From: Paludibacteraceae bacterium | GTDB lineage: Bacteria; Bacteroidota; Bacteroidia; Bacteroidales; Paludibacteraceae | Length of the DNA: 48,078 nt | Direction: 5' to 3' | NCBI GenBank assembly: GCA_017557345.1 | Contig: JAFYZR010000060.1 | Coordinates: 1-48,078, forward strand | Notes under the pieces: generated by a model | The model's input: only the letters and a program-made list of their open reading frames with translations | Databases searched by the model: none | What the model was told of the DNA's origin: nothing | Program-made: the position numbers and the translations under genes | In this document: positions 25,413 to 42,960 of the stretch, one piece after another | How the letters are laid out: each line of letters starts with the position of its first letter | Position numbering within the stretch: position 1 is the stretch's first letter

Positions 25413-25492
25413 GTTACGAAATATTGTTTCGAAAATATGCTATAAAGCATAGTGGATTATGACGAATAATTCGGAAAATTATGTTAATTTTG
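25413..25492 (+). promoter_or_regulatory. 80-bp promoter module of the aga-like operon
   Basis: Contains GTTACGAAAT, the inverted repeat TATGCT-ATAA-AGCATA (25436-25451), AATAATTCGGAAAA, and -7 box TAATTTTG (25485-25492). An equivalent module with the same spacing is at 41740-41819. No good -33 TTTG is present, which suggests activator dependence. The leader to the agaS ATG is about 90 nt. Confidence 0.72.
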
Positions 25493-25588: not shown

Positions 25589-26707
25589 ATGAACAATTTC
25601 ACTTTTAACGAGATTCATCAGCAACCAGCTATGTGGCGTAAAGAGTTACAGGCGCTGCTGGCCGCAAAGGCTGAGGTTAGTGCATTCATGCACAAGTTTT
25701 TGACCCCCGACACCGACATCGTTTTGACGGGAGCAGGCACATCTGCCTTCATCGGAGATGCGCTTTGTCCGGTTATGCGTGGTATGTGGCGCAATGTACG
25801 TTCGGTTCCTACAACCGATATCGTAACACATGCGAAATATCTGTTAGATGCAGAACGTCCGTTGCTGCTGATTAGCTTTGCCCGTTCAGGTAATAGTCCT
25901 GAGAGTGTTGCCGCTGTGAACCTTGCGAACAAAGTTTGCAAGAATGTAGCACATGTTTATATCACTTGCAACAAGAATGGTAAGCTGGCTCTGCAAGCTG
26001 CAGGAAAAGATAATATTCTGTTGCTGCTGTTGCCGGAAGAGACCGATGACAAGAGTTTGGCAATGACGAGTAGTTTCTCGACGATGTTACTGACCTGCTT
26101 GATGCTGGGTCACATCGATTCCTTGGATAAGGACGTCGAGCTAATCGAAAAGGCAGCTAAGAATGCAGAGGCTGTTATTGCGGAGTATGAAGAGAAGTTA
26201 AAGGAAATTGCAAGTCGCCCGTTTGAGCGTGGTGTATTCCTTGGATCGGGTGCGCTGAAGGGTATCGCAGAAGAATGCCATCTGAAACTGCAAGAGTTGA
26301 CAGATGGTGCCGTTGTTTGTAAGTTTGATAGTTTCCTTGGCTTCCGTCACGGACCGAAAGCGGTGGTTAACAGCAAGTCGATTGTCGTATATCTGATGAC
26401 CGAACAAGAAGAAGTGCAACGTTATGAGCGTGACTTGGTAAAGCAAGTGGATGCCAACAATACGCCGGTGGCACAGATTATTGTTATTGCCGGAAAGAAA
26501 CCAGAATTGCCGGGTGTGAAGGCTGACTTGGTAGTTAAGATGCCATTCGGTCCTGCAGAAAATGATTTCTACGGCATAGTACCTTACGTACTGGTTGGTC
26601 AGCTACTTGGCTTCTATGCATCAAAAGCTCATGGCTTGAATCCGGACGCACCGAGCGTAAGCGGAAATATCCACCGTGTTGTAGAAGGCGTCACTATTTA
26701 CGAATAA
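25589..26707 (+). CDS. agaS: Tagatose-6-phosphate ketose/aldose isomerase, AgaS-type galactosamine-6-phosphate deaminase
   Basis: A cytoplasmic double-SIS-domain protein of 372 residues. AgaS converts galactosamine 6-phosphate to tagatose 6-phosphate and ammonia in GalNAc/galactosamine catabolism. First SIS domain: LTGAGTSAFIGDAL and SFARSGNSPESVAAV. Second: FLGSGALKGIAEECHLKLQE and FLGFRHGPKAVV. The family-typical ending is LNPDAPSVSGNIHRVVEGVT, and ETDDKSLAMTSSF is also AgaS-like. Together these separate it from GlmS and KdsD. It is first in the operon, under the module at 25413-25492. No cytoplasmic GalNAc-6-phosphate deacetylase (AgaA/NagA) is in the window, so that step must be encoded elsewhere or the sugar enters deacetylated. 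Confidence 0.92.
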   Translation: MNNFTFNEIHQQPAMWRKELQALLAAKAEVSAFMHKFLTPDTDIVLTGAGTSAFIGDALCPVMRGMWRNVRSVPTTDIVTHAKYLLDAERPLLLISFARSGNSPESVAAVNLANKVCKNVAHVYITCNKNGKLALQAAGKDNILLLLLPEETDDKSLAMTSSFSTMLLTCLMLGHIDSLDKDVELIEKAAKNAEAVIAEYEEKLKEIASRPFERGVFLGSGALKGIAEECHLKLQELTDGAVVCKFDSFLGFRHGPKAVVNSKSIVVYLMTEQEEVQRYERDLVKQVDANNTPVAQIIVIAGKKPELPGVKADLVVKMPFGPAENDFYGIVPYVLVGQLLGFYASKAHGLNPDAPSVSGNIHRVVEGVTIYE

Positions 26708-26739
26708 TCTAAAATCTGAATCTTGAAATCTTTATAATT

Positions 26740-27969
26740 ATGGCAAAGACTGAAAACATCCTCCGCGTGATGGAGGAAAGAAAAAAAGCAACTGGAGTTC
26801 CAATGACACTTTTTGCAGCATGCCCGAACTCCTTGTCAGTAATCAAAGCATCCTTCCGTGCAGCGAAACGTAATAACTCGCCGATCTATTTCGCGACGAC
26901 GCTGAACCAGGTGGACTGCGACGGCGGTTATACCGGCATGACCCAGGAGATCTTCACGAAGATTTTGGCTCGTGAGGCTGCAGCCGTTCATTACACCGGT
27001 CCGTACGTAGTAGCTATCGACCACGGAGGCCCATGGTTGAAAGACGTTCAGAGTGTAGAGCGTTGGGATACCGAGCGTGCCATGAATGGTGTGAAGAAGA
27101 GTTATGAGGCTGCTATTCTTGCCGGTTATGACCTAATTCACGTTGATCCGACGGTAGATATCTTCCTGCCGAAAGGTGAGATTATTGATATCCATGTGGT
27201 TGTTAAACGTACGGTTGAGCTCATCAAGCATGCTGAGGATTTCCGTAAAGCACATAAGATCGCTCCTATTTCCTACGAAGTAGGAACAGAAGAGGTTCAC
27301 GGCGGTCTGGCAGATGAGAAGACCTTCGATACATTCCTCGAGGGCTTGAAGAAAGGTCTGCATGAGGTTGGTTTGGATGATATCTGGCCATGCTTCATCG
27401 TAGGTAAAGTAGGAACAGATTTGCATACCACCTTCTTCGATCCGCAAGTGGCACGCGATCTTACGGCTAAGGTTCGTCCTTACGGCAGTTACATTAAGGG
27501 TCACTATAGCGATGATGTAGAGAATCCAGAGGATTATCCAAAGGCAGGTATGGGTGCTGCAAACGTAGGTCCGGAGTTCACGATGAACGAGTACGATGCT
27601 TTAGCAGAACTCGAAGAAGAAGAGAAGAAACTGCACGCAGAAGGTAAGGTGGCTCAATTGAGTAACATGACCAAGGTGCTTTGGCAATGCGTTTACGACT
27701 CCAACCGCTGGAAAAAATGGTTGCGTGGTGACGAGGTTGGCAAAGACTTGAGCGAATGCACACCGGAACGTCAGCAATGGCTGGTTAAGACAGGTTGCCG
27801 TTATATCTGGCAGAAGCCGGAAGCGCTGGTGGCTCGTCAGATGCTTTACGATAACCTTGAGCGTCTGGGTATCCATGCAGAGGAAGTAGTGCTAATGCGT
27901 ATTGAGCACAATATGGATAAATACTACAATGCATTTAATATCGTTAACCTCAACGACTATCTGAAATGA
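26740..27969 (+). CDS. GatZ/KbaZ-like tagatose-1,6-bisphosphate aldolase subunit
   Basis: A 409-residue TIM-barrel protein of the GatZ/KbaZ family. Features are TLFAACPNSLSVIKASFRAA, FATTLNQVDCDGGYTGMT, VVAIDHGGPWLK and SYEVGTEEVHGG. In enterobacteria this subunit stabilises and activates the catalytic class II aldolase GatY/KbaY, which splits tagatose 1,6-bisphosphate. No GatY is adjacent; the only class II aldolase gene in the window is at 2767. Some relatives have been assigned epimerase-type activities, so an independent catalytic role is possible. The gene overlaps the acetyl esterase gene by 4 nt (ATGA) and follows agaS after 32 nt containing ATCT-centred 7-nt-like repeats. Confidence 0.88.
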   Translation: MAKTENILRVMEERKKATGVPMTLFAACPNSLSVIKASFRAAKRNNSPIYFATTLNQVDCDGGYTGMTQEIFTKILAREAAAVHYTGPYVVAIDHGGPWLKDVQSVERWDTERAMNGVKKSYEAAILAGYDLIHVDPTVDIFLPKGEIIDIHVVVKRTVELIKHAEDFRKAHKIAPISYEVGTEEVHGGLADEKTFDTFLEGLKKGLHEVGLDDIWPCFIVGKVGTDLHTTFFDPQVARDLTAKVRPYGSYIKGHYSDDVENPEDYPKAGMGAANVGPEFTMNEYDALAELEEEEKKLHAEGKVAQLSNMTKVLWQCVYDSNRWKKWLRGDEVGKDLSECTPERQQWLVKTGCRYIWQKPEALVARQMLYDNLERLGIHAEEVVLMRIEHNMDKYYNAFNIVNLNDYLK

Positions 27970-29345
27970 GAAAACAATTCTATCTGGTCGCTTTGTTAGC
28001 AGTTGTGCTGTGGGCTTGCGGGTGCGAGAAAAAGCCGAACGAGCCTCAGCCCGGTGATAAACCGGATATGGAGCTGATTACGCAGTCGGTTCCTGTGACG
28101 GACAACTGGATATGGAGCGGCAAACCGGCTATCACGCTGCATATAGAGAATGCAAATAGCATGGCCGTTAAGGTTGAGACGAAAATCATATTCTCAACGG
28201 ACCAGAAGAAGTCATTAATGACCATTACCGACAGCGTAGAAGTTGCCGGTAATGGCAAAATTGACTTTGTCATGACTCCGAGTGAGAATTTCGAACCGGG
28301 TTTCTATCGTGCTGTTTGCTTCGTGAATAATAAGTCTGCGCGGTCATTCATCTTCGGTATCGATCCGTTTGATATCGTCTCTGCTCCGGATATGCAATCT
28401 GACTTTACTGCGTTCTGGACGGCAACGAAAGAGCAGCTGGAGGCTGTTGACATGAAAGCGGAGTTGACGGAGATAACGGAGCGGAGTAGCGATGCACGCA
28501 AGGTTTATCTGGTGCAGATGCAGTCAATAGCCGATGGCTTGACCGGCGATCCGGTGATTATTCGTGGCTACTACTGCGAACCGCAGGATGGCCAGAAACA
28601 CCCTGTTATCTTCCATTTCTACGGTTATGATACGCAAGGCAGCAAGAGCAAATGCGAGTGCCCTTACGGTGGTTCATCCAACCAATTTGCAGAGTTCTAC
28701 CTCTCACATCGTGGACAATACCTCAATAATCGTCCCGCTACCACATATAACCCGGGAATTACGGAAGATTGCGTGAATATCTACGGCGACTGGTTTGCAT
28801 ATAACTTCGGTGATAAAAACGGTTATTATTATCGTGGCGCGTTTATGGATTGCGTGCAGGCGGTACGCTTTATGGCAACCCGTCCGACGAGCGATATGAC
28901 GAAGTTGTTTGCGGAAGGTTCGAGTCAAGGCGGCGCGTTGAGTTATGCATGTGCTTCTTTGAGTACCTTATGCGGATACTCCTTCACAGCGATTGCTCCG
29001 AATGTTGCCTTCTTGGGTGATTTCCCGGACTACTTCAAGATTGTAGGATGGCCGGCTGAGACGGCAAAAGCCAACAAAGGTTCCATGACCGATGAGCAGA
29101 TGTATGCCTTCTTGAGTTATTTCGATACGAAAAATCTGGCAACGCTTATCCCTGCTACCTGTGGTGTTTTGGGCAGTAGCGGTCTGCAGGATGGCACTTG
29201 TCCTCCGCATACCAATATCGCTCCTTTCAACAACCTGAAGACTCCGAAGACAAATAAGGAGTACGTCTTTGCACCGGAAATGCAGCATGACTACCCCGCT
29301 GGATGGACAACAAAACTCATGACGTTCTTCAAAGAACGTTTGTAA
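27966..29345 (+). CDS. CE7-type acetyl (xylan) esterase lipoprotein
   Basis: A 459-residue lipoprotein (LWACGC; Cys18 or Cys20 lipidated) with an N-terminal beta-domain of about 130 residues and an alpha/beta-hydrolase of the AXE1/cephalosporin-C deacetylase family. The catalytic triad is visible: Ser320 in EGSSQGGALS, Asp409 in GLQDGTCPPHTN, His441 in MQHDYPAGW. DPFDIVSAPD and PVIFHFYGYDTQGS also fit CE7. It probably removes O-acetyl groups from oligosaccharides in the periplasm or at the cell surface. Its translational coupling to the GatZ-like gene ties it to the amino-sugar pathway and suggests an acetylated target glycan; this substrate is inferred. Confidence 0.88.
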   Translation: MRKQFYLVALLAVVLWACGCEKKPNEPQPGDKPDMELITQSVPVTDNWIWSGKPAITLHIENANSMAVKVETKIIFSTDQKKSLMTITDSVEVAGNGKIDFVMTPSENFEPGFYRAVCFVNNKSARSFIFGIDPFDIVSAPDMQSDFTAFWTATKEQLEAVDMKAELTEITERSSDARKVYLVQMQSIADGLTGDPVIIRGYYCEPQDGQKHPVIFHFYGYDTQGSKSKCECPYGGSSNQFAEFYLSHRGQYLNNRPATTYNPGITEDCVNIYGDWFAYNFGDKNGYYYRGAFMDCVQAVRFMATRPTSDMTKLFAEGSSQGGALSYACASLSTLCGYSFTAIAPNVAFLGDFPDYFKIVGWPAETAKANKGSMTDEQMYAFLSYFDTKNLATLIPATCGVLGSSGLQDGTCPPHTNIAPFNNLKTPKTNKEYVFAPEMQHDYPAGWTTKLMTFFKERL

Positions 29346-29366
29346 TAAGATAAATATACAACAACC

Positions 29367-30311
29367 ATGAAAAAATTTGATATTATTGCTTTAGGTGAGC
29401 TGAATGTCGATTTGATTCTCAATCAGATCGAAGGCGAGCCGGAGATCGGCAAAGAGAAGTTTGCCAAACAAATGACGCTCACGTTAGGTAGCTCCACCGC
29501 TATTTTTGCTGCTAACGCTGCGGCTTTGGGAGCACGCGTGGCTTTCTGCGGAATGATCGGTGATGACAGCTTCGGCGATCTGGTAGAGAGCAGTCTGCAG
29601 GCGAAAGGCGTAGATACCCGTTATCTCATTCGTCAAAACAAGTATGCTACAGGTGCTACTATCTGCATGAGTTATGATGAGGATCGTGCTAACCTGACTT
29701 ATCAGGGAGCGATGGACTTTATGGGTTTGGCGGACATCAATCCGGAGGTTTTCAAAGAGACCAAACATATCCATATCTCGTCGATTTACATGCAGAGTGG
29801 CGTTAAACGCGACTTGATGAAGATCCTCGAACTCTGCAAAGAGAACGGTGTAACCGTTTCGCTGGATAGCCAGTGGGATCCTGCAGAGAAATGGGATTTG
29901 GACTTTAAGGCTGTGTTGCCGTTAGTATCGGTATTCATGCCGAATGAGACGGAATTGAAGTTCCTGACCCGCAAACAGACCTTGGAAGAGGCATTGGAGG
30001 CTATTCGTCCGTTTACGAACGCAGCGGTTATCAAATGCGGTAGCAAAGGCAGTATACTAATGCGCAAAGGCCAACCCGACCGCAAACAAGCAGCTCTGCT
30101 TAATAAGAATGTAGTGGACTGTATAGGTGCCGGTGATAGTTTCAACTCCGGTTTCCTTACACGTTTTGCGGCTGGAGATCCTTTGGATAAATGCCAGGAA
30201 TACGGCAACATGACAGGTGCTGTCAATACTACCGCTGCAGGCGGAACGACAGCATTCACGAATCGTGAAGACGTAGAGCGTATCGGACGCGAAAGATTCG
30301 GCTGGTCTTAA
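29367..30311 (+). CDS. PfkB-family sugar kinase, candidate tagatose-6-phosphate kinase
   Basis: A cytoplasmic ribokinase-fold kinase of 314 residues. N-terminal signature IIALGELNVDLIL, substrate region GSSTAIFAANAAALGARVAF, PNETELKFL, and the C-terminal catalytic motif DCIGAGDSFNSGF with base Asp257. Next to AgaS and a GatZ-like protein, the simplest role is phosphorylation of tagatose 6-phosphate to the 1,6-bisphosphate. A first-step kinase acting on free GalNAc/galactosamine is the alternative, and the sequence cannot decide. Its stop and the next start share a base (TAATG), coupling it to the first metallophosphoesterase gene. Confidence 0.88.
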   Translation: MKKFDIIALGELNVDLILNQIEGEPEIGKEKFAKQMTLTLGSSTAIFAANAAALGARVAFCGMIGDDSFGDLVESSLQAKGVDTRYLIRQNKYATGATICMSYDEDRANLTYQGAMDFMGLADINPEVFKETKHIHISSIYMQSGVKRDLMKILELCKENGVTVSLDSQWDPAEKWDLDFKAVLPLVSVFMPNETELKFLTRKQTLEEALEAIRPFTNAAVIKCGSKGSILMRKGQPDRKQAALLNKNVVDCIGAGDSFNSGFLTRFAAGDPLDKCQEYGNMTGAVNTTAAGGTTAFTNREDVERIGRERFGWS

Positions 30312-32638
30312 TGAAAAAACATATCTACATATCCCTTCTCCTCTTGCTGGCGCTTGGCGTGTCAGCAAGAGGGTGGTATGTAGCCTACGGAACGATTCAG
30401 TCTCAAATCAACCGTTGTCAGGCTGGAGATACCTTGTTCCTCGCTGCGGGCGTGTACCATGAATGTATCACGCTCAAGGATGGTGTGACCATCATCGGTG
30501 AAGAAGGACAAACGATTCTCGATGGTACGGGCAAGCAAACAAGGCTTATCAGTTGCGAGGCAGATTGTCAGTTGCCTACGCGCGTGGAGAACCTGGTGCT
30601 GCAAAACGCGCGTCATAACGAATTGGGCGGTGCAGCATGGCTGCGGGGAAAAGTGCTGATGAAGAACTGTATCGTTCGCGGGTGTAGCGGTCTGCAATGC
30701 GGTGGTGTATTGATTCAAGGAGATCTACCGGAAGCTTCTGCATTGGGCGCTAAATTGGAGGAATGTATTATCTATAACTGTACCGCTACGGGGCATGAAT
30801 GGCCGGACGCTGGCGGTGTAGCCAATTTCGATGGTACATTGATCAACTGCGTCATTGCCAATAACTACGGCGACCGATACGGCGGTATTCATTCGGAGAG
30901 TTCGGTTTATGACTGTATCATGTGGGGCAACCGCAATGAGTACGGATTTGTTGATCCGGCGAACTATGTATCCGATGAAAGCGAATCCGGCATCAGTCGT
31001 GCAGATGAAGGATTTGAAGATCATTTCTTTGAACAGCCATGGCTATCAACGGATAACGAAGCGCCTGATGGCCCGCATTTCCGTGATCCTTCTACGTTTG
31101 TCGGTGTGCCGGCGAATGAAACTGAACAGGCGATTATGTTGGCGGCTGATTATAGTATAGGTTCTCCTACGCATCGCATCGCATCGATGCCGGGCTCGGC
31201 GAGAAAAGACTTACTCACAGATTATACCCTCTATACTTCAGCAGATTACGCTATTCCATCTTTCATTGAATTCTTATTGACCAAAGACTCTTCCGTACTG
31301 CTACCGAAAGAAGAGCCCTATTGTATGGTAGCAACGATTAATGGTGACCCGAAGACACAAATGGGTTTCTGCTGGTTTACCAACGAGGGAATAGAACAAG
31401 GTTATGTCGAGATAACACCGACGGTCAACCGACGGTCACCCGACAGTCAAAGCATACGTGACGCTAGGATGGTGATACCTGCAACAGCCACAACGACAGT
31501 GCCATTGCACTATGCTATTTCGAGTTCGGGTATTCTCAAGGCTGCGCATATTGACAAAAACACCGCTTTCCGTTATGTGAGTCATAAAGCGCTTGCTACG
31601 AATCTGCAACCCGGTACGGAGTATACCTATCGCGTAGGATATGAGGGGCATTGGAGTGAATCAGGGCATTTCCGTACGGCCGATGCAGAGCAGGGAGAGT
31701 TTTCGTTCATATACATGACGGATAGCCATATACAAAATAAGGAATACGTGGACGCGGCGCGCTTGTGCGCGAACGCGGTTGCGCGATATGAGAAGAATGC
31801 ACGGTTTTGCGTCTTCCCCGGAGATTTTGTAGATACAGGCACAGAGAAAAATAGCGAATGGGAGTGGGAAAGCTGGTTTGAAGAAGCACTAAAGCCCGTT
31901 TTGCGACAGATGCCGCTGGTACCGACTGATGGTAATCATGACGATACACCGCTGATGAATTATAGCTATCATTTCAATACCGATACGTCGTTTAATGCAG
32001 AGACGGCCGTTCGTCCGCAATTCGCCGGAATTAACTATAGTTTCGTGTATGGAGATATGCAACTGATTGCTTTCTCGATGCAAGATTTCTGGCGAGGCGA
32101 ATATGATATGAAGCAAGGTACGTCTGAATACCTGGAGCGTGATTTAGGCGGTTGGTTCCGCCGTCAAGTAGCCGCAGCGCCTGATGCTACATGGCATGTA
32201 GGATTAGTTCATAAGAATCTCTTCTCGGGTTCGGATCATCAGCGTGATAAAGAAACGCCGTTATTGCGTGCCACCATGTTGCCGGTGATGAAAGACTGCA
32301 AGATGGATCTTATCTTGCAAGGTCATGATCATTGCTATGAAGTGATAGGTCCGGTAGATCCGGATACACGTAAACCGGCTCAAAAAGGCACTATCTATTT
32401 TATTGGAGCCACTTGCGGCGCCAAGCGCTATACTCCGTTGACGCGCGAGGAAATGGATGCCAGCAAACATATCCATCAGTTGGAGAACTATTATGATTTG
32501 TTCGCCAAATTAGACCAGCCGGGTGCACCGAGTTACACGCGTGTGACGGTAAACAAGAAATATCTGATGCTTGAGACTTTCAAAGTGCTTGAGAATGGAC
32601 AGACAGAATTATTTAATACTATAATAATCGATAAATAA
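30311..32638 (+). CDS. Secreted beta-helix + Fn3 + metallophosphoesterase protein (MPE paralogue 1)
   Basis: 775 residues. Signal peptide ending near GVSARG; beta-helix (about 20-220) with turns such as LVLQNARHNELGG; a linker; and a purple-acid-phosphatase-type Fn3 (EEPYCMVATINGDPK, GFCWFTNEG, YRVGYEGHWSESGHF). The metallophosphoesterase domain (about 462-750) has the complete ligand set MTDSHIQ, FPGDFVDTG, TDGNHDD, LVHKNLFSG and LQGHDHCYE. There is no lipobox and no sorting-like tail. A three-unit 11-nt repeat (31418-31450) encodes part of the Fn3 region. The substrate is unknown; a phosphomonoester or phosphodiester on the glycan used by this operon is my inference. Confidence 0.85.
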   Translation: MKKHIYISLLLLLALGVSARGWYVAYGTIQSQINRCQAGDTLFLAAGVYHECITLKDGVTIIGEEGQTILDGTGKQTRLISCEADCQLPTRVENLVLQNARHNELGGAAWLRGKVLMKNCIVRGCSGLQCGGVLIQGDLPEASALGAKLEECIIYNCTATGHEWPDAGGVANFDGTLINCVIANNYGDRYGGIHSESSVYDCIMWGNRNEYGFVDPANYVSDESESGISRADEGFEDHFFEQPWLSTDNEAPDGPHFRDPSTFVGVPANETEQAIMLAADYSIGSPTHRIASMPGSARKDLLTDYTLYTSADYAIPSFIEFLLTKDSSVLLPKEEPYCMVATINGDPKTQMGFCWFTNEGIEQGYVEITPTVNRRSPDSQSIRDARMVIPATATTTVPLHYAISSSGILKAAHIDKNTAFRYVSHKALATNLQPGTEYTYRVGYEGHWSESGHFRTADAEQGEFSFIYMTDSHIQNKEYVDAARLCANAVARYEKNARFCVFPGDFVDTGTEKNSEWEWESWFEEALKPVLRQMPLVPTDGNHDDTPLMNYSYHFNTDTSFNAETAVRPQFAGINYSFVYGDMQLIAFSMQDFWRGEYDMKQGTSEYLERDLGGWFRRQVAAAPDATWHVGLVHKNLFSGSDHQRDKETPLLRATMLPVMKDCKMDLILQGHDHCYEVIGPVDPDTRKPAQKGTIYFIGATCGAKRYTPLTREEMDASKHIHQLENYYDLFAKLDQPGAPSYTRVTVNKKYLMLETFKVLENGQTELFNTIIIDK
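31418..31450. repeat. 11-nt repeat x3 inside MPE paralogue 1
   Basis: CCGACGGTCAA, CCGACGGTCAC and CCGACAGTCAA start at 31418, 31429 and 31440. They encode TPTVNRRSPDSQS, where the paralogues at 32640 and 34449 share a different sequence (T/N-A-x-DFE/AS). The heads match the CCGA arrays at 12281-12390 and 40680-40712. Confidence 0.85.
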
Positions 32639-32639
32639 C

Positions 32640-34382
32640 ATGAAAAAGTATTACTATCTTTTCTTAGTTCTTTTCCTTGCTTTTACAGCTTGTGAGAAGC
32701 CGATTGTAGAACCGGAAGAACCGGAAAATCCTGACACGGCCAGTGTCCCGTTGACTGAGTGGGAGATTTTGGATACCACTTATACGGTTGCAGACTGGAC
32801 AGTACCAAGCCACACGGCTTTCAAGATTGCTTTAAAAACCTGTGCGGATAATCCGACAGACGAAAACAAAAAAGTCTTGGAGCAAAAAATCAACGAGTTG
32901 ATTCCAAAAGAGGAGCCGTATTGTATGGTGGCCACCTTTAACGGCGATCCGAAGCATCGGATGGGCTTCTGCTGGTTCACGAACGACGGCATAGAGAATG
33001 GCGAAGTACAAATCTTACCGACTTCGGATGCAACCGCAGCGGATTTTGAGTCCGGAAACGGAGTGTTGACAGTTCCGGCTCAGCCGACACAGACTAGGGC
33101 ATTGCGTTATAGCGGTAAAGCGCGTTATATCGTTAATGCTTCAGGCATCGATGCCAGTGTACGGTATAAATACATCAGCCATAAGGCTGTAGCAACGAAC
33201 CTTACTCCTGGAACAGAGTATAGCTGGCGTGTGGGTTATAAAGACCACTGGAGTTCAATTGGCCATTTCCGTACAGAAGATGCTTCACAAGGAGAGTTCA
33301 GTTTCATTGTGATGTCAGATAGCCATATTGAGAATCCGACGTATATTGCTGAGGCTCGTCGTTGTGCGTTAGCAGCTGTTAAGACCGTGCCGGAAGCTAA
33401 GTTCTGCTGCTTCCCGGGTGACTTTGTAGAAGATGGTGATGCCAATAACAGCGAATGGGAGTGGGAGCGTTGGTTTGAGGAGAGTCTCAATCCTGTTATC
33501 ATGAATATGGCATTAGTGCCGACGGACGGAAACCACGATGACAGCCCGAACATCAACTATACGTATCACTTCAATACAGATAATGAATTCAATAATGTTT
33601 ATACAGATGCTCCGCAATTCGAGGGTATTGTATATAACTTCGTTTATGGTGACGCGCTGTTTCTGGTATTTTCGATGCAGGATTTCTGGCGTGAGACGCA
33701 TAGTTATATCGACTGGACTTCCGTTTATCTGACCGATCATATAGGAAAATGGTTCCGTGACAAAACGATGCAAAATCCTAACACGAAGTACCGTATCTCA
33801 TTGGCGCACTTCAATCTCTTCTCGGGTTCTGACCACTCGACGGATAAAGAGCCACCGGTATTCCGTCATTGTATGTTGCCGGTAATGAAAGCATGTGAGA
33901 TTGACGTAGCATTGCAAGGCCATGATCATACTTACGAAGTAATCGGTCCGGTTAATCCGGATAACTGCACACCTATTCTGAGTGCGATTTCGGAGCGTGA
34001 GGAAGTAGGAGTAGATAAGAATAAGAACATGACCGGTTATAAGGGCGGCACGTATGTAGTGGATGATGGCACATTCTATTTCATCGGTGCTACTTGCGGT
34101 CACAAACGTTATTATCCGCATAGCCGCGAACGTATGGAAGCAGATTATACAGATGATAACAAGACTTTGCAGGACGACAAACATCATAATGTGAAGAACT
34201 ATTTCGATCTTTTCACCGGTATGTTCGGTCAGCCTGAAGCACCAACCTTCACGAAGATTACTGTGAAAGATGATTGCTTGCTCTTTGAATCCTATACAGC
34301 GGATGACGATCAAGGTCATGTATCGCTACTCAACACGATGAAGGTAGTGCGTACAAAGCCTCATGGAATACCGACGTTGTAA
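32640..34382 (+). CDS. Metallophosphoesterase lipoprotein (MPE paralogue 2)
   Basis: 580 residues. Lipoprotein signal ending FTAC (Cys18), a short Glu/Pro-rich linker, Fn3 domain (EEPYCMVATFNGDPK, GFCWFTNDG, SWRVGYKDHWSSIGHF) and metallophosphoesterase (about 220-570: MSDSHIE, FPGDFVEDG, TDGNHDD, LAHFNLFSG, LQGHDHTYE). It lacks the beta-helix of its neighbours, so it is the minimal catalytic version held at the membrane surface. One base separates it from paralogue 1. The insert after the GHDH motif (DKNKNMTGYKGGTYVVDDG) is shared with paralogue 3 and absent from paralogue 1, so 2 and 3 are the closer pair. Confidence 0.87.
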   Translation: MKKYYYLFLVLFLAFTACEKPIVEPEEPENPDTASVPLTEWEILDTTYTVADWTVPSHTAFKIALKTCADNPTDENKKVLEQKINELIPKEEPYCMVATFNGDPKHRMGFCWFTNDGIENGEVQILPTSDATAADFESGNGVLTVPAQPTQTRALRYSGKARYIVNASGIDASVRYKYISHKAVATNLTPGTEYSWRVGYKDHWSSIGHFRTEDASQGEFSFIVMSDSHIENPTYIAEARRCALAAVKTVPEAKFCCFPGDFVEDGDANNSEWEWERWFEESLNPVIMNMALVPTDGNHDDSPNINYTYHFNTDNEFNNVYTDAPQFEGIVYNFVYGDALFLVFSMQDFWRETHSYIDWTSVYLTDHIGKWFRDKTMQNPNTKYRISLAHFNLFSGSDHSTDKEPPVFRHCMLPVMKACEIDVALQGHDHTYEVIGPVNPDNCTPILSAISEREEVGVDKNKNMTGYKGGTYVVDDGTFYFIGATCGHKRYYPHSRERMEADYTDDNKTLQDDKHHNVKNYFDLFTGMFGQPEAPTFTKITVKDDCLLFESYTADDDQGHVSLLNTMKVVRTKPHGIPTL

Positions 34383-34390
34383 TTAGTAAA

Positions 34391-34418
34391 AAGACGAAAG
34401 ATAAAAGATAAAAGACAA
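34391..34418. repeat. Heptamer microrepeat AAGAYRA x4 between MPE genes
   Basis: Units start at 34391, 34398, 34405 and 34412, filling most of the 66-nt gap between paralogues 2 and 3. Confidence 0.8.
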
Positions 34419-34448
34419 CTTTTTTATTAACCAAAATAATTAATATTT

Positions 34449-37400
34449 ATGAAACGATTTCTATTTCTTTTGACGGTCTGCACGGTAGCGCTGTGCGCGT
34501 CAGCAACGAACAAGTATGTGATTGCCGGTGGAGCCGGAACACAAGATGGTAGTTCGTGGGAAAATGCTGCACCAACTATTGGATCTATGATCTGGAAGGT
34601 TGTAGCTCCGGGTGACACGATGTTTATCGCTCAAGGCGAATACAATGAAGGTATTGGCCTCTCCTCGCAGAATGGTACCACATATCTTGGAGGATACAAT
34701 CCTATGACAGGCGAGCGTGATCCGGAATTATATGAGACTATTCTTGATGGTACAGGTCTTTCCGGCTATTTCATCGTCAAGTACGATGACCCTCCTACCT
34801 CTCCTATGACGATTGACGGATTTACCATCCAAAACGTTCAACATGGCGAATGGGATGCAGGCGCAGTTTTTCTGCGCGGAAACATGACGTTAAGTAACTG
34901 TATTATTCGCGACTGCGAAACTACAGGTAATTCATATACAGCTGGTGTTTGGATTCAAAAAGGCGAAGCCGAGAATCCGGGAGTTGTCAGCAATTGTATC
35001 TTTGAAAACTGCGTTCGCAAAGATAAAACTAGTGGAGCTGCTGCTGTGTATAATCACGATGGCGGTATAATTGAGAATTGTATTGTTCGCGGTTGTCAAG
35101 GAGGTAATGGCGCTATCCGCAATGCAGCAGATGGAATCGTGCGCAATTGTGTACTATATAATAACCTTTCTGATTATAATGGTGCTCTCTATGGTGATGG
35201 ATTGTTCGTTAATAATACTGTATGTAATAATGAGGGAGCAAGCGGACGCTATGGCGGTTGCCGTATAACAGGAACAGTAATCAATTGTGTATTTTGGGGC
35301 AACCAAGTTCCCGGTACTGCTTCTGCCACGAATCAGAACTATATTGGTGGTACTTCTACTAACAATATCGCTGATGTCGGAACAGGTATGACTACTGGTT
35401 TGGCAACGAGCAACGTTGATGCAAACGGACCGAATTTTAGTAATCCTACCACTTTTATTGGACTTCCTAAAACAGATGCAGCTCGAATTACGATGCAGAA
35501 AGCTGAATTCTCGCTCACTGATCTTTCGACTGCTTTATTAAATCAAGGAACATTGGAAGGTGCCCCTGCAAAAGACATAGAAGGCATAGAGCGTCCAATA
35601 GGCACAGGTGTGGATATTGGTGCTTATGAGTACGATCCGAACGCTACTCCTATCGCTGTTACCGGCGTAAGTCTTCTGCAAACATCGCTCACGATGAGTG
35701 TAGGCTCGACAGGTACGTTAGTAGCGCAAATAGAGCCGACGAATGCAAAAAACAAACACGTCACATGGTCTATCGAAGACCCGACAATTGCTACAATGGA
35801 TAAAGGCAGGGTAACCGGTGTTAGTGAAGGTACGACGACGGCTTGGGTTGAGACTGAAGATGGAGGTTTTACAGCATCGGCTACAATCATTGTGAAACCG
35901 GTTAAATATCCGCATGAGGTATTAGAAGCTGAGGCTACTTATAAGATTGAGGACTATACTATTCCAAGTTTCATACCGTTCTTAGTAGCTAAAACAGAAG
36001 CCAAGATTGACAGTGTGGATCCCGAGTCGGACATCACTATTATTGCGGAGAAATTGGTGGTAATGAATCAGCGTATCTCTGAATTAAAAGCCAAAGAGGA
36101 GCCGTATAACCAAATTGCTACAATCAATGGTGATCCTCACACCCATATGGGATTCTGCTGGTTCACGAATGGTGGAATTACGGATGGTGTTGTTCAACTC
36201 CTGCCTATGGCCAATGCTACGGCAGAAGACTTTGCTTCTGTTGACGGTGTAATAACAATAAGTGCTAACACAAGCGATGCAAACCTTCACTACACGCCTA
36301 TTCAGGCAAGCGAAAGTCCGAAGTATGATATTTGTACCGCAGCGGGTCTGCCTCGTGACACGAAGTTTGATTATGTAAGCCACAAGGCTACTGCAACCGA
36401 ACTAACACCGGGTACGACTTATAGCTGGCGTGTCGGCTTCGATGGTCACTGGAGTGAGATTGGACAGTTTGTAACGCAAGATGAAAACCAAGGCGACTTC
36501 TCGTTCATTTACATGACGGATAGCCATATTCAAGATGCGGAATATATTGAGCAAGCAAGAAAATGTGCTGAGGCTGTAGCGCAGCATGAAACGGATGCGA
36601 AGTTCTGCCTCTTCCCGGGTGACTTTGTAGATACGGGTGGTAAGACTAACTCTGAATGGCAGTGGGAACGCTGGTTCGAAGGTTCTATGCGTCCGATGCT
36701 GAATAAGATGACTGTTGTTCCGACGGATGGTAACCATGATGATAGTCCGAGTTTGAACTATGATTACCACTTCAATACCGATTGGGGCTTTGCTACTGGT
36801 GCAGAAGTGAAACCGCAGTTCAAGGGAATTACCTATAGTTTCCAATATGGCGATGTGCTCTTCCTCGTCTTCTCGATGCAAGACTGGTGGCGTGAGAGCG
36901 GTACACATGAGAGTGAGATGCATTCGAAATATTTCACACAAGATATTCGCAACTGGTTCCTCGAGCAAATCGAAGCGCATCCTACGGCTAAATATCGTGT
37001 AACGCTATCGCACAAGAATGTATTCTCTGGCGCAGGTCACCATACGGATGATGAGTGTACGCTTATCCGTACGTTAATGTTGCCTATTATGAAAGAGTGT
37101 AAGATTGACTTGGCTATTCAAGGTCATGACCATTGCTACGAAGTAATCGGTCCGGTTGATTCAGATACCAAGACTGTTGTTCCGGGTTCAGTAACCGATA
37201 CCGTACGCTTATATCCGGAAATGGAAAAGAGATATGATCGTAGTTCCAATGCAACCGGTCTCGAAGGAGGTACTTTCACTACCGATGATGGTACGCTCTA
37301 TTTCATTGGCGCTACCTGCGGTCGCAAGCGCTATGAGCCGTATAGCCGCAAAGATATGGAAGATGAATATACAACCGATCCTTCTATCTTGTATGATTAT

Positions 37401-37715
37401 CATCACCATAATGTAGAGAACCTGTTCGACCTCTTTACCTCTAAGTTCGGTCAACCAGGTACTCCGTCATGGACACGCTTCAATGTAACGAGCGAGGGTA
37501 TAGAAGTTATCACCTATTATCTTGATAAAAATACGGGAAATAAGACCGTATTTAATACGATTAGAGTAAAACATGCTCCAGTTGCTACCGGAATTGATGA
37601 AACGGCAGTAGAGAATAAGGTAAGTAACGGTGAGAAATTCATCAAGGATGGTCAGTTGTATATCCGCAAGGATGGTAGAATTTATAACGTTATTGGGCAG
37701 GAAATGGCCCAATAA
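34449..37715 (+). CDS. Secreted beta-helix + Big_2 + Fn3 + metallophosphoesterase protein with sorting-like tail (MPE paralogue 3)
   Basis: 1088 residues. Signal peptide MKRFLFLLTVCTVALCASA; beta-helix (about 25-385) with turns such as NCIIRDCETTGN and ENCIVRGCQGG; a bacterial Ig-like group 2 domain (about 399-482: VTGVSLLQTSLTMSVG, VTWSIEDPTIATMD). Then the Fn3 domain with EEPYNQIATINGDPHTHMG, a metallophosphoesterase (about 683-1040: MTDSHIQ, FPGDFVDTG, TDGNHDD, LSHKNVFSG, IQGHDHCYE) and the tail GEKFIKDGQLYIRKDGRIYN. The three tandem paralogues differ in how they would be held: no anchor, lipid anchor, and C-terminal tail. It probably continues the aga-like transcript, since no clear promoter lies in the 66-nt gap. 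Confidence 0.87.
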   Translation: MKRFLFLLTVCTVALCASATNKYVIAGGAGTQDGSSWENAAPTIGSMIWKVVAPGDTMFIAQGEYNEGIGLSSQNGTTYLGGYNPMTGERDPELYETILDGTGLSGYFIVKYDDPPTSPMTIDGFTIQNVQHGEWDAGAVFLRGNMTLSNCIIRDCETTGNSYTAGVWIQKGEAENPGVVSNCIFENCVRKDKTSGAAAVYNHDGGIIENCIVRGCQGGNGAIRNAADGIVRNCVLYNNLSDYNGALYGDGLFVNNTVCNNEGASGRYGGCRITGTVINCVFWGNQVPGTASATNQNYIGGTSTNNIADVGTGMTTGLATSNVDANGPNFSNPTTFIGLPKTDAARITMQKAEFSLTDLSTALLNQGTLEGAPAKDIEGIERPIGTGVDIGAYEYDPNATPIAVTGVSLLQTSLTMSVGSTGTLVAQIEPTNAKNKHVTWSIEDPTIATMDKGRVTGVSEGTTTAWVETEDGGFTASATIIVKPVKYPHEVLEAEATYKIEDYTIPSFIPFLVAKTEAKIDSVDPESDITIIAEKLVVMNQRISELKAKEEPYNQIATINGDPHTHMGFCWFTNGGITDGVVQLLPMANATAEDFASVDGVITISANTSDANLHYTPIQASESPKYDICTAAGLPRDTKFDYVSHKATATELTPGTTYSWRVGFDGHWSEIGQFVTQDENQGDFSFIYMTDSHIQDAEYIEQARKCAEAVAQHETDAKFCLFPGDFVDTGGKTNSEWQWERWFEGSMRPMLNKMTVVPTDGNHDDSPSLNYDYHFNTDWGFATGAEVKPQFKGITYSFQYGDVLFLVFSMQDWWRESGTHESEMHSKYFTQDIRNWFLEQIEAHPTAKYRVTLSHKNVFSGAGHHTDDECTLIRTLMLPIMKECKIDLAIQGHDHCYEVIGPVDSDTKTVVPGSVTDTVRLYPEMEKRYDRSSNATGLEGGTFTTDDGTLYFIGATCGRKRYEPYSRKDMEDEYTTDPSILYDYHHHNVENLFDLFTSKFGQPGTPSWTRFNVTSEGIEVITYYLDKNTGNKTVFNTIRVKHAPVATGIDETAVENKVSNGEKFIKDGQLYIRKDGRIYNVIGQEMAQ
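37690..37715 (+). terminator. Hairpin over the stop codon of MPE paralogue 3
   Basis: A 9-bp perfect stem TTATTGGGC/GCCCAATAA with an 8-nt loop. There is no T-run directly after it, so it may protect the 3' end rather than terminate. Confidence 0.45.
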
Positions 37716-37735: not shown

Positions 37736-37767
37736 CTTGCGTATTTCAAATATTTGTTGTACCTTTG
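37736..37767 (+). promoter_or_regulatory. Promoter of the secreted repeat protein
   Basis: CTTG 37736-37739, 20-nt spacer starting CGTATTTC, TACCTTTG 37760-37767. The leader is about 92 nt. Confidence 0.75.
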
Positions 37768-37865: not shown

Positions 37866-40547
37866 ATGAGAAAAATTCTCTCAATTTTCGCTGCGATGCT
37901 GGTAGCATTAGCAGTGAATGCTCAAGGAACGGATTTTGCAGCTCCTGGTTATTCGTGCGCTGCAGACGATGGAGTTATCAGTGGAGATGCTCCTGCTGAA
38001 AAAGTGTTCCTTCACTCTACAGATGACCCTCATTATATTGGATGGTCAGATGTAAGTAAATCGTATACCGCTGTTGTTTCATGGACAGTCACAGCCACAC
38101 GTGCTTGTTATATTTCTGTTGGCTTGGATTTAGGTCCGGTTATTGGTTCCAACAAACACATTTTTGAAGTAAAATTGCTGGACGCTGATAGTAATGAACT
38201 TGGAGCATTAGAAGAAGGTCCTGCCTATACAGGTGACGGATTTACCGAATCAGAACAAGTTAAGGCATTGACCGGTAAGTTGCTGATTCCTGCACCAGGT
38301 GTGTATACTATTGAGTTGAGAAATAATCGTGACTTCTGCAAGGGCACTATCAAGAATGTAATTCTTACTTATGCAGGTGATGCCCCGATTACAGATTTCG
38401 CGGCTCCGGGTTACTCATGTGCTGCAGACGACGCTGTTATTAGTGGAGATGCTCCGGCTAATAAGGTTTATCTCCAATCCGAAACCGATCCTCATTATAT
38501 CGGATGGTCGGATGTAAGTAAATCGTATACAGCTGAAATATCGTGGAAAATCATGGCAACACGTGGTTGTTATGTATCTGTAGATTTGGATTTAGGTCCG
38601 GCGATTAGTTCTAACAAGCACATTTTTGAAGTTCAATTACTTGATGAAGAAGGTAACAAACTTGATACTATTGCTGAAGGCCCGGCCTACACGGGAGATG
38701 GATTTACCCAAGCAGATCAAGTGAAAACCTTAGAAGGCACTCTTCTTGTTCCCAAAGCTGGTATCTATACAGTTGTACTAAAGAATAATCGAGATTTTTG
38801 TAAGGGTTCCATTAAGAATGTAATACTTACTTATGCGGCAGATGCTCCATTAGAGCCAAAGACATTCTACGGTGCAACTTCTTTTGTTACCGAAGGTAAT
38901 TATTCTGGTAATTGGAATGCTGTAGAGTGGAATATTACCCGTAATGCAGACAAGACCCTAACAGCTGTTGTAGAATGGAGTGGTGAAATAGTAGGTGCTG
39001 TTCCGCAACTTAAAATCGGCGATGGTAACTTTACTAATATGACAGTTGAAGGAAAGAAGGGAACATTAACCACAACAGCAACTTACGAAGATGGCAATGA
39101 TTTGAATGTTGAATTCTATATTGCATATGCTGGTGCAGCAAAGAGTATTCCTGTAACTTACACCGTTGGTTCTGAGAATGAGAAGCCTGCAACTCCGGTA
39201 GAGCCTGTAGCAGTACCGGCAGAGTTTGAGATTGATATGCAATCCGATGTATTAGGTAGTGAAGGTGCTGCAGTTAAGAGATGGCTGGTTGTTGGTGAAC
39301 CTAATGCATTTGAAGCAGCAGCTCCTGCAGAGTATAATGCCATTCTTGAGGCACAAGGATTCACAGCAAGTCACGGTTACCACCAATTGGTAGCAACCGT
39401 TCCTGTAGAGGCTGGTGATTACAGAGTAACGCTCGGTAAATGCCAATATGCATATTCGGCAGACTATACAATGGCTTATGTAAAGGATGAAGAAAACCAG
39501 ACTCTGGCATCCGTCAAGCAAAACACCACAAGTGAAGAAGAAGGCGGCGTTTGCTACCATCAAAATACTACCACCAATGTAGTAACGATGGAGTTTACCG
39601 TAGATGCAGCTCAAACCTTAAAGATTCTCTGCGCTCACTATACTCCGTATATCAAGGTAGAGAAAGTAGTTAAGAAATCTCTGTCAGAGTTCATAGCAGA
39701 TAAGCCAGCAACGGAAGTTACTCTGAAAGACCTGACCGTTCTCTTTGCTACCGGAAAGAATACGTATGTTATTGATGAAGAAGGTGTAGCTTTGGTAATC
39801 TTCGATAATGGCAAAACGTATTATGATGGTACTTTGACCGCAGGTAAGGTATTGTCCGGACAAAAGGCTACCTATACGGCTTACAAGAACCAGGATGAGA
39901 TTATTCCGACGAATACCGCTGCCATCTCTGACGGAACGGTTGCTACTCCTACCACGTTAAGCGAATTCCCGACAACAGCTAATGTAAATCAGTATGTGCG
40001 TTTGGAGAATTTAGACGCAAAAGCAGACGGAGGTAAGTATTATGTAGCCAATGGAGAAAATGCAAAGGCTTTGCAACTCTACGGTGCAACCGGAGACTTG
40101 AAGCCAAGCAAAGATGGTATCTTCAATGTAGAAGGTATAATCATTAACTTTAATAACACCCAATTGGAGATTATCGTTCTGGCTATTGAAGAAGTTAAAT
40201 TCGGTATCGTTATCGCAGACTGCGCAAATGGCGCTCTCGCATCTGATAAGACAGAAGCAGGTGTTGGCGAAACAGTTACATTGACCATTACTCCGGTAGA
40301 AGGCTATGAACTGGATGAGTTAACCGTTACAGGTGTGGCAGCAGCAGACATCACAATCGATGGTAATACAGCAACCTTCGCAATGCCGGCTCAAAACGTA
40401 GAAGCAAGTGCTACGTTCAAAGTAGCAGTAGGTACCGGTATGGATAATACCAATAGCGTAAAGGTAACGAAAGCTGTTGAGAATGGCCAGCTGATCATCA
40501 TCAAGAATGGTGTTAAGTATAACGCACAAGGTGCGGTAGTTCGCTAA
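37866..40547 (+). CDS. Secreted modular repeat protein with sorting-like tail, function unknown
   Basis: 893 residues. Signal peptide ending VNAQ, then two nearly identical 154-residue modules starting at about residues 22 and 176 (each FAAPGYSCAADD..., HYIGWSDVSKSYTA..., GPAYTGDGFT..., NNRDFCKG). A beta-sandwich domain (about 333-440) and another (about 450-605) follow. An OB-fold-like segment (about 612-770: VTLKDLTVLFATGKNTYVID) precedes a bacterial-repeat domain (about 771-850: GYELDELTVTG, ATFAMPAQNVEASATF). The last residues are the tail AVENGQLIIIKNGVKYNAQG. No catalytic motif was seen. The paired N-terminal modules look like ligand-binding domains, so a surface glycan-binding or adhesin role is plausible. 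It has its own promoter and a terminator at 40591-40618. Confidence 0.75.
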   Translation: MRKILSIFAAMLVALAVNAQGTDFAAPGYSCAADDGVISGDAPAEKVFLHSTDDPHYIGWSDVSKSYTAVVSWTVTATRACYISVGLDLGPVIGSNKHIFEVKLLDADSNELGALEEGPAYTGDGFTESEQVKALTGKLLIPAPGVYTIELRNNRDFCKGTIKNVILTYAGDAPITDFAAPGYSCAADDAVISGDAPANKVYLQSETDPHYIGWSDVSKSYTAEISWKIMATRGCYVSVDLDLGPAISSNKHIFEVQLLDEEGNKLDTIAEGPAYTGDGFTQADQVKTLEGTLLVPKAGIYTVVLKNNRDFCKGSIKNVILTYAADAPLEPKTFYGATSFVTEGNYSGNWNAVEWNITRNADKTLTAVVEWSGEIVGAVPQLKIGDGNFTNMTVEGKKGTLTTTATYEDGNDLNVEFYIAYAGAAKSIPVTYTVGSENEKPATPVEPVAVPAEFEIDMQSDVLGSEGAAVKRWLVVGEPNAFEAAAPAEYNAILEAQGFTASHGYHQLVATVPVEAGDYRVTLGKCQYAYSADYTMAYVKDEENQTLASVKQNTTSEEEGGVCYHQNTTTNVVTMEFTVDAAQTLKILCAHYTPYIKVEKVVKKSLSEFIADKPATEVTLKDLTVLFATGKNTYVIDEEGVALVIFDNGKTYYDGTLTAGKVLSGQKATYTAYKNQDEIIPTNTAAISDGTVATPTTLSEFPTTANVNQYVRLENLDAKADGGKYYVANGENAKALQLYGATGDLKPSKDGIFNVEGIIINFNNTQLEIIVLAIEEVKFGIVIADCANGALASDKTEAGVGETVTLTITPVEGYELDELTVTGVAAADITIDGNTATFAMPAQNVEASATFKVAVGTGMDNTNSVKVTKAVENGQLIIIKNGVKYNAQGAVVR

Positions 40548-40773: not shown

Positions 40774-41550
40774 TTAAACGATATGCACATCGATCCCTTG
40801 TGCTCGGAGTTTGGAAGCCATTCCGGGCGGAATAGCATGATCGGTAATGATAACGTCAATCTCTTTGGCATTCGCGATATGCGAGAAGCTGCGCTTGTTG
40901 AATTTCGACGAGTCAAAAACGGCAATCACCTGATCTGCCTGCTGAATCATTACCTGATTGAGCAAAGCCTCTTCGAGGCTTGGTGTAGAGATGCCATTTT
41001 CAATGGAGAAAGAATCGACACCGAGAAAGAGTTTATACCTGCTGAAGTTTCGTAGCGTCGTGAGCGCAAGCGGTCCGACCATAGAAAGGCTGGTAGTCCG
41101 CACATTTCCACCCAACAGGACGACATCGAAACGCTTGTAGTTCATCAGCTCCGCGGCAATATTCATAGCGTTTGTGATGATATGCAGATGATGGAACTTA
41201 TCCAGATGCTTAGCCACTTCGAGCGTGGTAGTACCGGAATCGAGCATGAGATAATCGCCATCCTTAATCAATTTCGCAGCCTCTGCTCCGATACGCTCTT
41301 TTTCCCGGAAATTGAACATCTGCTTTCTTGAGATGGCAGTATCGTCATTCGGATTATCCACAGGTCTACGCATCGCACCACCTCTTGTTCGTAACAAAAG
41401 ATGCCTGTTTTGTAGAATGGTAAGATCCTTTCGAATAGTAACTTCCGAAATACCCGTTTCTCGACTGATTTCGGTAACAAACACTTCTTCTTTTTGCTCA
41501 AGCATTCGCAAAATAAGTGCCCTTCTTTCTTTAGCAGATGAACTATTCAT
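40774..41550 (-). CDS. DeoR-family transcriptional regulator (AgaR-like)
   Basis: A 258-residue regulator. The N-terminal DeoR winged helix (VFVTEISRETGISEVTIRKD, LLRTRGGAMR) is followed by a C-terminal sugar-phosphate sensor domain (DSGTTTLEVAKHL, VVLLGGNVRTTSLSMVGP, AVFDSSKFNKRSF, DVIITDHAI). DeoR proteins of this type usually repress until a phosphosugar binds; in AgaR systems the inducer is a GalNAc-pathway sugar phosphate. The open frame reaches 41634, but the promoter's -7 box is at 41632-41639, so ATG 41550 (MNSSSAKERR) is the start. The position between the two glycan operons and the shared CGAAA repeats make it their likely local regulator. Confidence 0.92.
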   Translation of the reverse strand: MNSSSAKERRALILRMLEQKEEVFVTEISRETGISEVTIRKDLTILQNRHLLLRTRGGAMRRPVDNPNDDTAISRKQMFNFREKERIGAEAAKLIKDGDYLMLDSGTTTLEVAKHLDKFHHLHIITNAMNIAAELMNYKRFDVVLLGGNVRTTSLSMVGPLALTTLRNFSRYKLFLGVDSFSIENGISTPSLEEALLNQVMIQQADQVIAVFDSSKFNKRSFSHIANAKEIDVIITDHAIPPGMASKLRAQGIDVHIV

Positions 41551-41560
41551 GGTATATATG

Positions 41561-41612
41561 ATTAGTGATTTTCGAATTAGCGAATTAGTGGTTTTTCGAT
41601 TAGCGATTAATG
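41561..41612. repeat. ATTAGYG microrepeats in the regulator's leader
   Basis: ATTAGTG/ATTAGCG/ATTAATG at 41561, 41576, 41584, 41599 and 41606 (spacing 15, 8, 15, 7), interspersed with TTTTCGA. They would form most of the 5' leader of the deoR-family mRNA. Confidence 0.7.
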
Positions 41613-41631
41613 AATTTTCGAAATTCGGGTG

Positions 41632-41663
41632 CAAAGATACGAAATAATTTCGAAATATGCAAA
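41632..41663 (-). promoter_or_regulatory. Promoter of the deoR-family gene with an internal operator
   Basis: Minus strand: TTTG 41663-41660, 20-nt spacer, TATCTTTG 41639-41632. Two CGAAA copies (41640 and 41651, 11 nt apart on the plus strand) occupy the spacer, so binding there would block RNA polymerase. Confidence 0.75.
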
Positions 41664-41687
41664 TAAAAAGTTTCGGTTGAAATTTTT

Positions 41688-42958: not shown

Positions 42959-42960
42959 CT

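Follow-up and report, generated by a model that had tools for sequence, protein, structure and literature searches.

A probable multi-operon utilization locus for a phosphate-bearing galactosaminide glycan in a Paludibacteraceae genome

Comparison with described galactosamine systems

The aga/gam pathway of galactosamine use (reviewed in PMC12118421), the FpGalNAcDeAc/FpGalNase enzymes of Flavonifractor plautii (PMC11762096), and the Pel clusters of Gram-positive bacteria (PMC7112168, PMC12345266) are the described systems to which the locus presented here is compared. The locus lies in a stretch of 48,078 nucleotides from a Paludibacteraceae bacterium (GenBank assembly GCA_017557345.1, contig JAFYZR010000060.1; hereafter the window), where a seven-gene operon, agaS-gatZ-CE7 esterase-pfkB-MPE1-MPE2-MPE3 (25589..37715, all on the + strand), joins galactosamine-type catabolic genes to an acetyl esterase gene and metallophosphoesterase (MPE) genes. 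As in aga/gam, there is an AgaS-like SIS enzyme, a KbaZ/GatZ-like protein, a kinase step, and a regulator of the DeoR family, to which AgaR of aga/gam also belongs. In contrast to aga/gam, no phosphotransferase system gene was seen in the window, AgaA/NagA was not found, GatY/KbaY is missing, and the genes are joined to SusC, GH36, amidohydrolase, CE7, and four MPE genes.

The likeness to the F. plautii pair lies in a GH36 relative whose catalytic residues align by motif, however its partner in the window is a PF04909 amidohydrolase with a putative deacetylase role, and the FpGalNase residue Y464 is not kept. With the Pel clusters the window shares a putative DUF4832 hydrolase, a likeness at the level of the domain to SIR_1591, the demonstrated Pel hydrolase with a DUF4832 domain (PMC12345266). 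The Pel clusters, whose product is an alpha-1,4-GalNAc/GalN polymer and which likewise hold phosphate-related accessory genes, make their polymer, whereas the window locus would consume it.

The agaS operon appears to be one half of a polysaccharide utilization locus, with the other half at 40774-47952. We consider it probable that the whole is a multi-operon locus serving an alpha-galactosaminide glycan, made of galactosamine that is partly N-acetylated and bearing phosphate and O-acetyl groups, with the substrate and its phosphate chemistry deduced from the genes. This reading builds on the observed gene content, conserved linkage, intact catalytic residues, and a promoter-region motif common to two operons. 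The individual parts are of known kinds; new are their combination, the conserved recruitment of MPE and CE7 genes to the operon of agaS, and a SusC locus in which GatZ has no GatY, with no published description of this gene combination among the literature matches listed (titles and abstract starts).

Layout, conservation and history of the agaS operon

The open reading frames and coordinates given by the initial annotation of the window are borne out on remeasurement, as is their tight packing from agaS to MPE2 (overlaps of 4 and 1 nt, gaps of 1-32 nt). Thus agaS (25589..26707) is followed after 32 nt by gatZ (26740..27969), which overlaps the CE7 gene (27966..29345) by 4 nt; 21 nt further lies pfkB (29367..30311), which overlaps MPE1 (30311..32638) by 1 nt, with gaps of 1 nt from there to MPE2 (32640..34382) and of 66 nt from MPE2 to MPE3 (34449..37715). 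Pfam assigns SIS, GatZ_KbaZ, AXE1 (CE7), and PfkB domains to the first four products, and Pur_ac_phosph_N with Metallophos to MPE1, MPE2, and MPE3 alike. Two descriptions in that annotation stand in part: MPE1-MPE3 do form a tandem row of three, but the set is understated, with a fourth gene, MPE0, divergent from agaS at 21836-25246 (-), and the gene row of the operon is as described, but the functional unit reaches at least to the SusC gene at the contig end.

A single transcript from agaS to MPE3 is likely. Scanning both strands of the whole window with a Bacteroidetes-type promoter consensus gave 26 sites. Among them are sites before agaS, before the oppositely oriented MPE0, before the gene after MPE3 (37736-37767), and on both strands of the gap between the DeoR and amidohydrolase genes, with none at the six internal junctions of the operon. 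The promoter-like sites before agaS (25458..25492, +) and the amidohydrolase gene (41789..41819, +) are imperfect, each matching the upstream box at only 3 of 4 bases.

GatZ was found (E <= 1e-40) in 20 of 61 near genomes, with all 20 among the 37 of the window's genus, and a wider draw from the order gave it in 13 of 393 genomes, the window's own included, at E <= 1e-60. Among the best 80 of 423 GatZ matches, the record titles are mostly of metagenome-assembled genomes labelled Paludibacteraceae or Bacteroidales, with named sources mostly a goat, yak, deer, reindeer, buffalo, or cattle stomach compartment, or horse faeces. Clade loci were defined by a GatZ identity of at least 89% (n = 56, of which 52 show pfkB), with locus L121 (88.998%) grouped outside by rounding and too short to count; L and G numbers here are our handles for loci and genomes. 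gatZ and pfkB flank the CE7 gene in 51 of the 52, and an MPE gene is the next gene recognised by the query set after pfkB in 47 of 48 clade loci with at least 2.5 kb beyond pfkB, which argues that the gene order is not due to chance. The run of MPE genes in the 44 clade loci with at least 7 kb is three long in 25, one in eight, two in five, four in four, five in one, and absent in one. Some of the loci L026-L042 share contigs with some of L067-L146, and the counts of the two sets are kept apart.

Matches to GatZ and to MPE2 (E <= 1e-120) agree in 36 of the genus's 37 genomes, with 19 having both, 17 neither, and one GatZ only (Fisher p 1e-9, ignoring kinship); the lone GatZ-positive genome with no MPE2 match, G027, keeps gatY. 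The gene set sought in other genomes is conserved across a mostly rumen clade of Paludibacteraceae, and the claimed link between galactosamine-type catabolism, secreted phosphoesterases, and an acetyl esterase holds, with the partners found in one region even where their order differs.

Such differences in order are seen in several relatives. In the near relative SIG114, the recognised genes run on one strand as agaS-gatZ-pfkB-amidohydrolase-GH36-SusC-SusD-DUF4832-GH31-CE7-NahK-MPE3-MPE0, and in a horse relative SusD is followed by genes of the MPE3/MPE0 type, two genes with DUF4832, and a CE7 match that is weaker (37%). In a sister genus, G356 carries FecR-SusC-SusD-DUF4832-MPE3-MPE0, two other genes, GH31, a second DUF4832 match below cut-off (21.5 vs 29.2), and GH109, with no GatZ match at E <= 1e-60. 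Because the linkage is kept in different orders and recurs in the sister-genus locus, the MPE and CE7 genes look like standing members of alpha-galactosaminide loci, not accidental neighbours.

The opposing explanation, that the MPEs merely scavenge phosphate from nucleotides or phytate and are chance recruits beside a sugar operon, draws on purple acid phosphatases being their nearest solved structures, on other relatives, including 47% ones in G145 and G392, in unrelated contexts, and on E. coli-type promoter-like matches before MPE2 and MPE3. However, the galactosamine linkage is kept in two gene orders, a second locus has DUF4832 and GH109, and the internal junctions hold no Bacteroidetes-type promoter-like site, and we judge scavenging to be quite improbable.

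In a quick tree of AgaS, GatZ, and PfkB (83 rows, built under a simple model and flagged for long branches), a clade of 50 rows is innermost, the horse and Colicola lines, both without gatY, branch off before it, and the G027 line, which has gatY, falls outside these. Together with near relatives in which gatY is missing and its place holds no MPE, this suggests that gatY was lost before MPE genes entered the agaS operon. Direct replacement of gatY by MPE genes was rejected, with L122, L124, L125, and L128 having neither gatY nor an MPE in that place, and L113 and L116-L120 were rejected as ancestral intermediates, as their branches fall within the rumen clade (supports 87-89, unstarred).

Catalytic residues and regulation

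AgaS (SIS family, galactosamine-6-phosphate deaminase/isomerase-like) has TIGR02815 as its nearest NCBIfam family, with 374 bits over 4-371 of 372 residues against a cut-off of 529, and the pfkB-family sugar kinase, which exceeds no NCBIfam cut-off, may be a galactosamine 6-kinase or a tagatose-6-phosphate kinase. NagA (TIGR00221) was not found in the window's genome, and was found in one of 11 genomes searched. Since agaS without agaA has been taken as the sign that galactosamine is used and not GalNAc (PMC5583593), the lack of a NagA match points to a galactosamine signature, in place of the GalNAc signature of the initial annotation.

In GatZ, residues D94, H95, E180, and H255 are invariant among 16 sequences and correspond by motif to D87, H88, E171, and H257 of E. 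coli GatZ, with a tagatose-6-phosphate 4-epimerase role for GatZ described in the same paper (PMC11907403). None of the 56 clade loci has gatY after pfkB, and the PF01116 gene of the window's genome (2767-3765) is of a kind spread across the genus and no GatY partner; exceptions in the genus are G022 (no match), G010 and G036 (gene in two pieces), and G030 (two full copies, of the common kind). Though gatY is gone, clade GatZ proteins keep 89-98% identity to that of the window (among the best 80 of 423 matches). Given the retained metal residues, this high identity, and the missing partner, GatZ more likely acts alone as a tagatose-6-phosphate 4-epimerase, as judged from sequence, and a role as aldolase subunit in this clade was rejected, with no GatY partner present.

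GatZ-like proteins (32-35% identity) also occur in Enterococcus, Pantoea, Klebsiella, and Listeria records (L021, L022, L024, L025), beside fructose-type phosphotransferase genes and HAD hydrolases, with a transaldolase or fructose-6-phosphate aldolase beside the gene in three of the four. No GatY is annotated in these loci, which is a further hint at GatZ working alone. In L079 (10001-11304), the GatZ match is in two pieces over 1304 bp, maybe through a small insertion, a frameshift, or an assembly error. The PF01116 gene at 2767-3765 in the window, the only class II fructose-bisphosphate aldolase gene found in its genome, might cleave tagatose bisphosphate too.

Calcineurin-like metallophosphoesterases carry the ligand motifs DxH, GD, GNH, H, and GHxH, and none of the seven ligand residues varies among the 23 MPE sequences compared. 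The MPEs resemble purple acid phosphatases (PAPs) in combining a PF16656 N-domain with PF00149, and PAPs are their nearest solved structures by profile search (6e-6), whilst a PDB search with the single MPE2 sequence gave nothing useful. In contrast to PAPs, whose Tyr ligand lies in a GDxxY motif, all 23 have Glu (16) or Asp (7) at this position, and an identity as true PAPs was rejected.

Beyond their shared PAP-N and metallophosphatase domains, MPE1 has a long N-terminal part with a signal-like start, MPE2 the lipobox FTAC, MPE3 beta-helix and Big_2 regions, and MPE0 a DUF5123 domain and a beta-helix match below cut-off (the MPE0 query used in searches lacked its first residue). MPE0, MPE3, and the DUF4874-DUF4832 protein (18005..19543, +) have similar C-terminal tails that by eye resemble those of the type IX secretion system (T9SS); GldM of this system is present in the genome, and an MPE3 homologue in L161 scores 23.3 against the T9SS tail model PF18962 (cut-off 27). 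The MPE array seems to grow by duplication, with a second copy of MPE2 in L077, and of both MPE1 and MPE2 in L083. Some MPE matches of G007, G008, G010, and G034 are interrupted by one or two in-frame stops, and may be pseudogenes, assembly errors, or matches overrunning the gene end.

The CE7 esterase, a putative lipoprotein with an N-terminal Cys after a hydrophobic stretch, scores 132 bits against PF05448 (AXE1). It keeps the Ser-Asp-His triad motifs of the family, with Ser320 conserved in 57/57, Asp409 in 56/56, and His441 in 55/55 rows covering each site. In other Bacteroidales (L141, L142, and L144), CE7 homologues (44-53%) also lie beside the agaS cluster, directly upstream of the DeoR gene in the latter two, so that CE7 is linked to the cluster in a second way.

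The initial annotation proposed as substrate a phosphate- and acetyl-decorated GalNAc/galactosamine glycan, such as a teichoic-acid-like or phosphorylated capsular or host glycan. On a teichoic-acid-like or phosphodiester-linked capsular GalNAc/GalN polymer, the MPEs would be backbone-cutting phosphodiesterases. The presence of several MPEs, the beta-helix and Ig-like regions in one of them, and an esterase that could take off acetyl decorations are consistent with this proposal, however the chain-cutting enzymes present resemble alpha-glycosidases, and no glycerol- or ribitol-phosphate catabolic gene was recognised among the scanned window proteins, making such a polymer distinctly unlikely.

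Of the enzymes in the second half of the locus, the GH36 protein (43007..44944, +, a putative lipoprotein) has two best solved relatives, FpGalNase (9awt, 7e-48) and 8x1b (2.5e-48), which is almost identical to it but was deposited under the name alpha-galactosidase, and a generic GHL10 assignment was rejected on account of this match to a GH36 galactosaminidase. All 21 sequences of this family keep counterparts by motif of the FpGalNase catalytic residues named in PMC11762096 (an Asp pair, Lys, the nucleophile Asp, Cys, and a second Asp), and D463 and D532 have counterparts in all 21. The amidohydrolase (41858..42958, +), which has a lipobox, keeps D61, H63, H65, H195, H252, and D307 in all 27 sequences compared, and is a natural candidate for deacetylation outside the cytoplasm.

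An enzyme of the FpGalNase kind, used on the A antigen, would also suit a host mucin or blood-group-A-type O-glycan, with alpha-GalNAc caps deacetylated and cleaved as in F. plautii and the MPEs serving another ester or general phosphate gain. The clade is gut-borne (among the best 80 of 423 matches, titles naming a source give ruminant or horse stomach compartments or faeces), and GH109 is present in the sister-genus locus. However, several MPEs kept in both gene orders have no obvious need on mucin, a DUF4832 hydrolase is known from Pel clusters, and no sialidase, fucosidase, or hexosaminidase was seen among the Pfam-scanned window proteins (a scan covering part of the window's open reading frames), so that we hold a mucin substrate to be unlikely.

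The two operons share an inverted-repeat motif, a candidate operator. Two identical copies of the 14-mer ATGCTATAAAGCAT are found in the window, one ahead of agaS (25437..25450, +) and one ahead of the amidohydrolase gene (41764..41777, +), with four matches in the window when up to two mismatches are allowed, as many being reached in 0 of 100 shuffles. Alignment of the two upstream regions scores 103, against a shuffle maximum of 73 (n = 300). In eight comparable relatives, with L092 left out, the same comparison exceeds all 200 shuffles in six, which are not independent, as L111 and L112 are close kin; one is marginal and one negative. The motif is most simply a common operator of the DeoR-family protein (40774..41634, -), whose binding we infer from sequence.

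Substrate, wider locus and meaning

Under the favoured reading of a locus for a phosphate-bearing alpha-galactosaminide, four secreted or lipid-anchored MPEs would strip phosphate outside the cell and the CE7 lipoprotein would strip acetyl groups, with the chain cut by the DUF4874-DUF4832 protein (and by GH31, present downstream in relatives) and the pieces imported via SusC/D. The lipoprotein amidohydrolase would remove N-acetyl groups before the GH36 galactosaminidase frees galactosamine. After uptake, PfkB would phosphorylate galactosamine (or tagatose-6-phosphate), AgaS would convert galactosamine-6-phosphate to tagatose-6-phosphate and ammonia, and GatZ without GatY would yield fructose-6-phosphate, with the DeoR protein repressing both operons through the shared motif.

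Several observations weigh against this reading. Among 20 non-clade loci showing pfkB, none has CE7 before it; in 19 of these the sequence beyond pfkB still shows a gene, and the first one is never an MPE gene, whilst 10 have gatY (the call in L123 rests on a PF01116 match and the L066 query); in 12 loci of further families (L055-L066), MPE or CE7 is nearby in none and gatY in 11. Many other Bacteroidales have agaS-gatZ-pfkB-gatY with SusC genes and no MPE, which means that the core pathway can do without phosphate removal. Barnesiella sp. An55, Dysgonomonas sp. BGC7, and Paludibacter sp. 221 carry such a gatY-type locus in records that bear no metagenome-assembly label. An MPE3 homologue (47%) stands without galactosamine genes beside it in the Barnesiella-type G145 and G392, and MPE relatives at 36-42% occur in unrelated contexts, including in other families. 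G008, the sole nagA carrier among the 11 genomes, also has the cluster (L036).

At the level of single proteins, AgaS falls under its curated cut-off, PfkB may have either of two specificities, Y464, a specificity residue of FpGalNase, is Gly in 21 of 21 GH36 sequences, PDB searches with the amidohydrolase, as single sequence or profile, gave weak matches only (best E 0.49), and PF18962 has five matches in the genome and none on the window contig.

The regulatory evidence is likewise uneven. The upstream comparison gave no shared score in L072 (reached by 21 of 200 shuffles), perhaps because a DeoR gene there lies directly before agaS on the same strand, and was marginal in L096 (1 of 200); the exact core GCTATAAAGC is present in 11 of 160 loci, which indicates that the motif varies. 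E. coli-type matches just before MPE2 (11/12, 32596-32625) and before MPE3 (9/12, 34412-34440) speak against one transcript. With 35 E. coli-type sites observed against 33.3 expected from shuffles, however, such matches are no more than chance would give.

A more specific possibility, put forward tentatively, is that the locus is dedicated to using the Pel-type biofilm polymer (alpha-1,4-GalNAc/GalN) of Gram-positive neighbours, phosphorylated or polyphosphate-bound, with the MPEs removing phosphate and the amidohydrolase a new kind of glycan N-deacetylase. Pel is an alpha-1,4-GalNAc/GalN polymer with DUF4832 in its clusters (PMC12345266, PMC7112168), and a streptococcal TIM-barrel/DUF4832 protein disrupts Pel-dependent aggregates (PMC12345266, PMC7112168). 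In streptococci and clostridia, Pel clusters have genes for a CotH kinase and a polyphosphate polymerase next to DUF4832 (PMC7112168, PMC12345266), for which reason phosphoesterases might be expected in a galactosaminan locus. DUF4832 may occur in settings other than Pel, and no dedicated utilization system for a Pel-type polymer turned up among the literature matches listed.

The remaining features complete the picture of the wider locus. At lower coordinates than MPE0 lie an N-acetylhexosamine 1-kinase (NahK)-like gene (20179..21255, +; PF01636; phmmer match to 4ocu, 8e-68), found near agaS in many relatives, and a gene for a CBM9_2-domain protein (21265..21834, +). The gene after MPE3 (37866..40547, +), with its own promoter-like site, is probably a unit separate from the agaS operon, and its secreted-looking product of 893 aa has a repeated N-terminal unit and a divergent InlB B-repeat. 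The SusC-like TonB-dependent receptor gene (44950..47952, +) is the last before the contig end at 48078. SusD follows SusC in G546, G554, G558, and G510, and since SusD, DUF4832, and GH31 follow SusC in the rumen relatives G546 and G554, these genes probably lie beyond the window's contig. An FGE-sulfatase-domain protein (SUMF1-like) is encoded at 5770-7371 (-).

If the favoured reading is true, a phosphate-bearing galactosamine glycan would be a food source in the rumen, and the four MPEs, the amidohydrolase, the GH36 enzyme, and the DUF4832 hydrolase would be candidates for dismantling matrices rich in galactosamine, Pel or galactosaminogalactan for instance, and for the removal of alpha-GalNAc. 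With GatZ kept and gatY gone, the clade offers a natural experiment on whether GatZ functions as an enzyme by itself.

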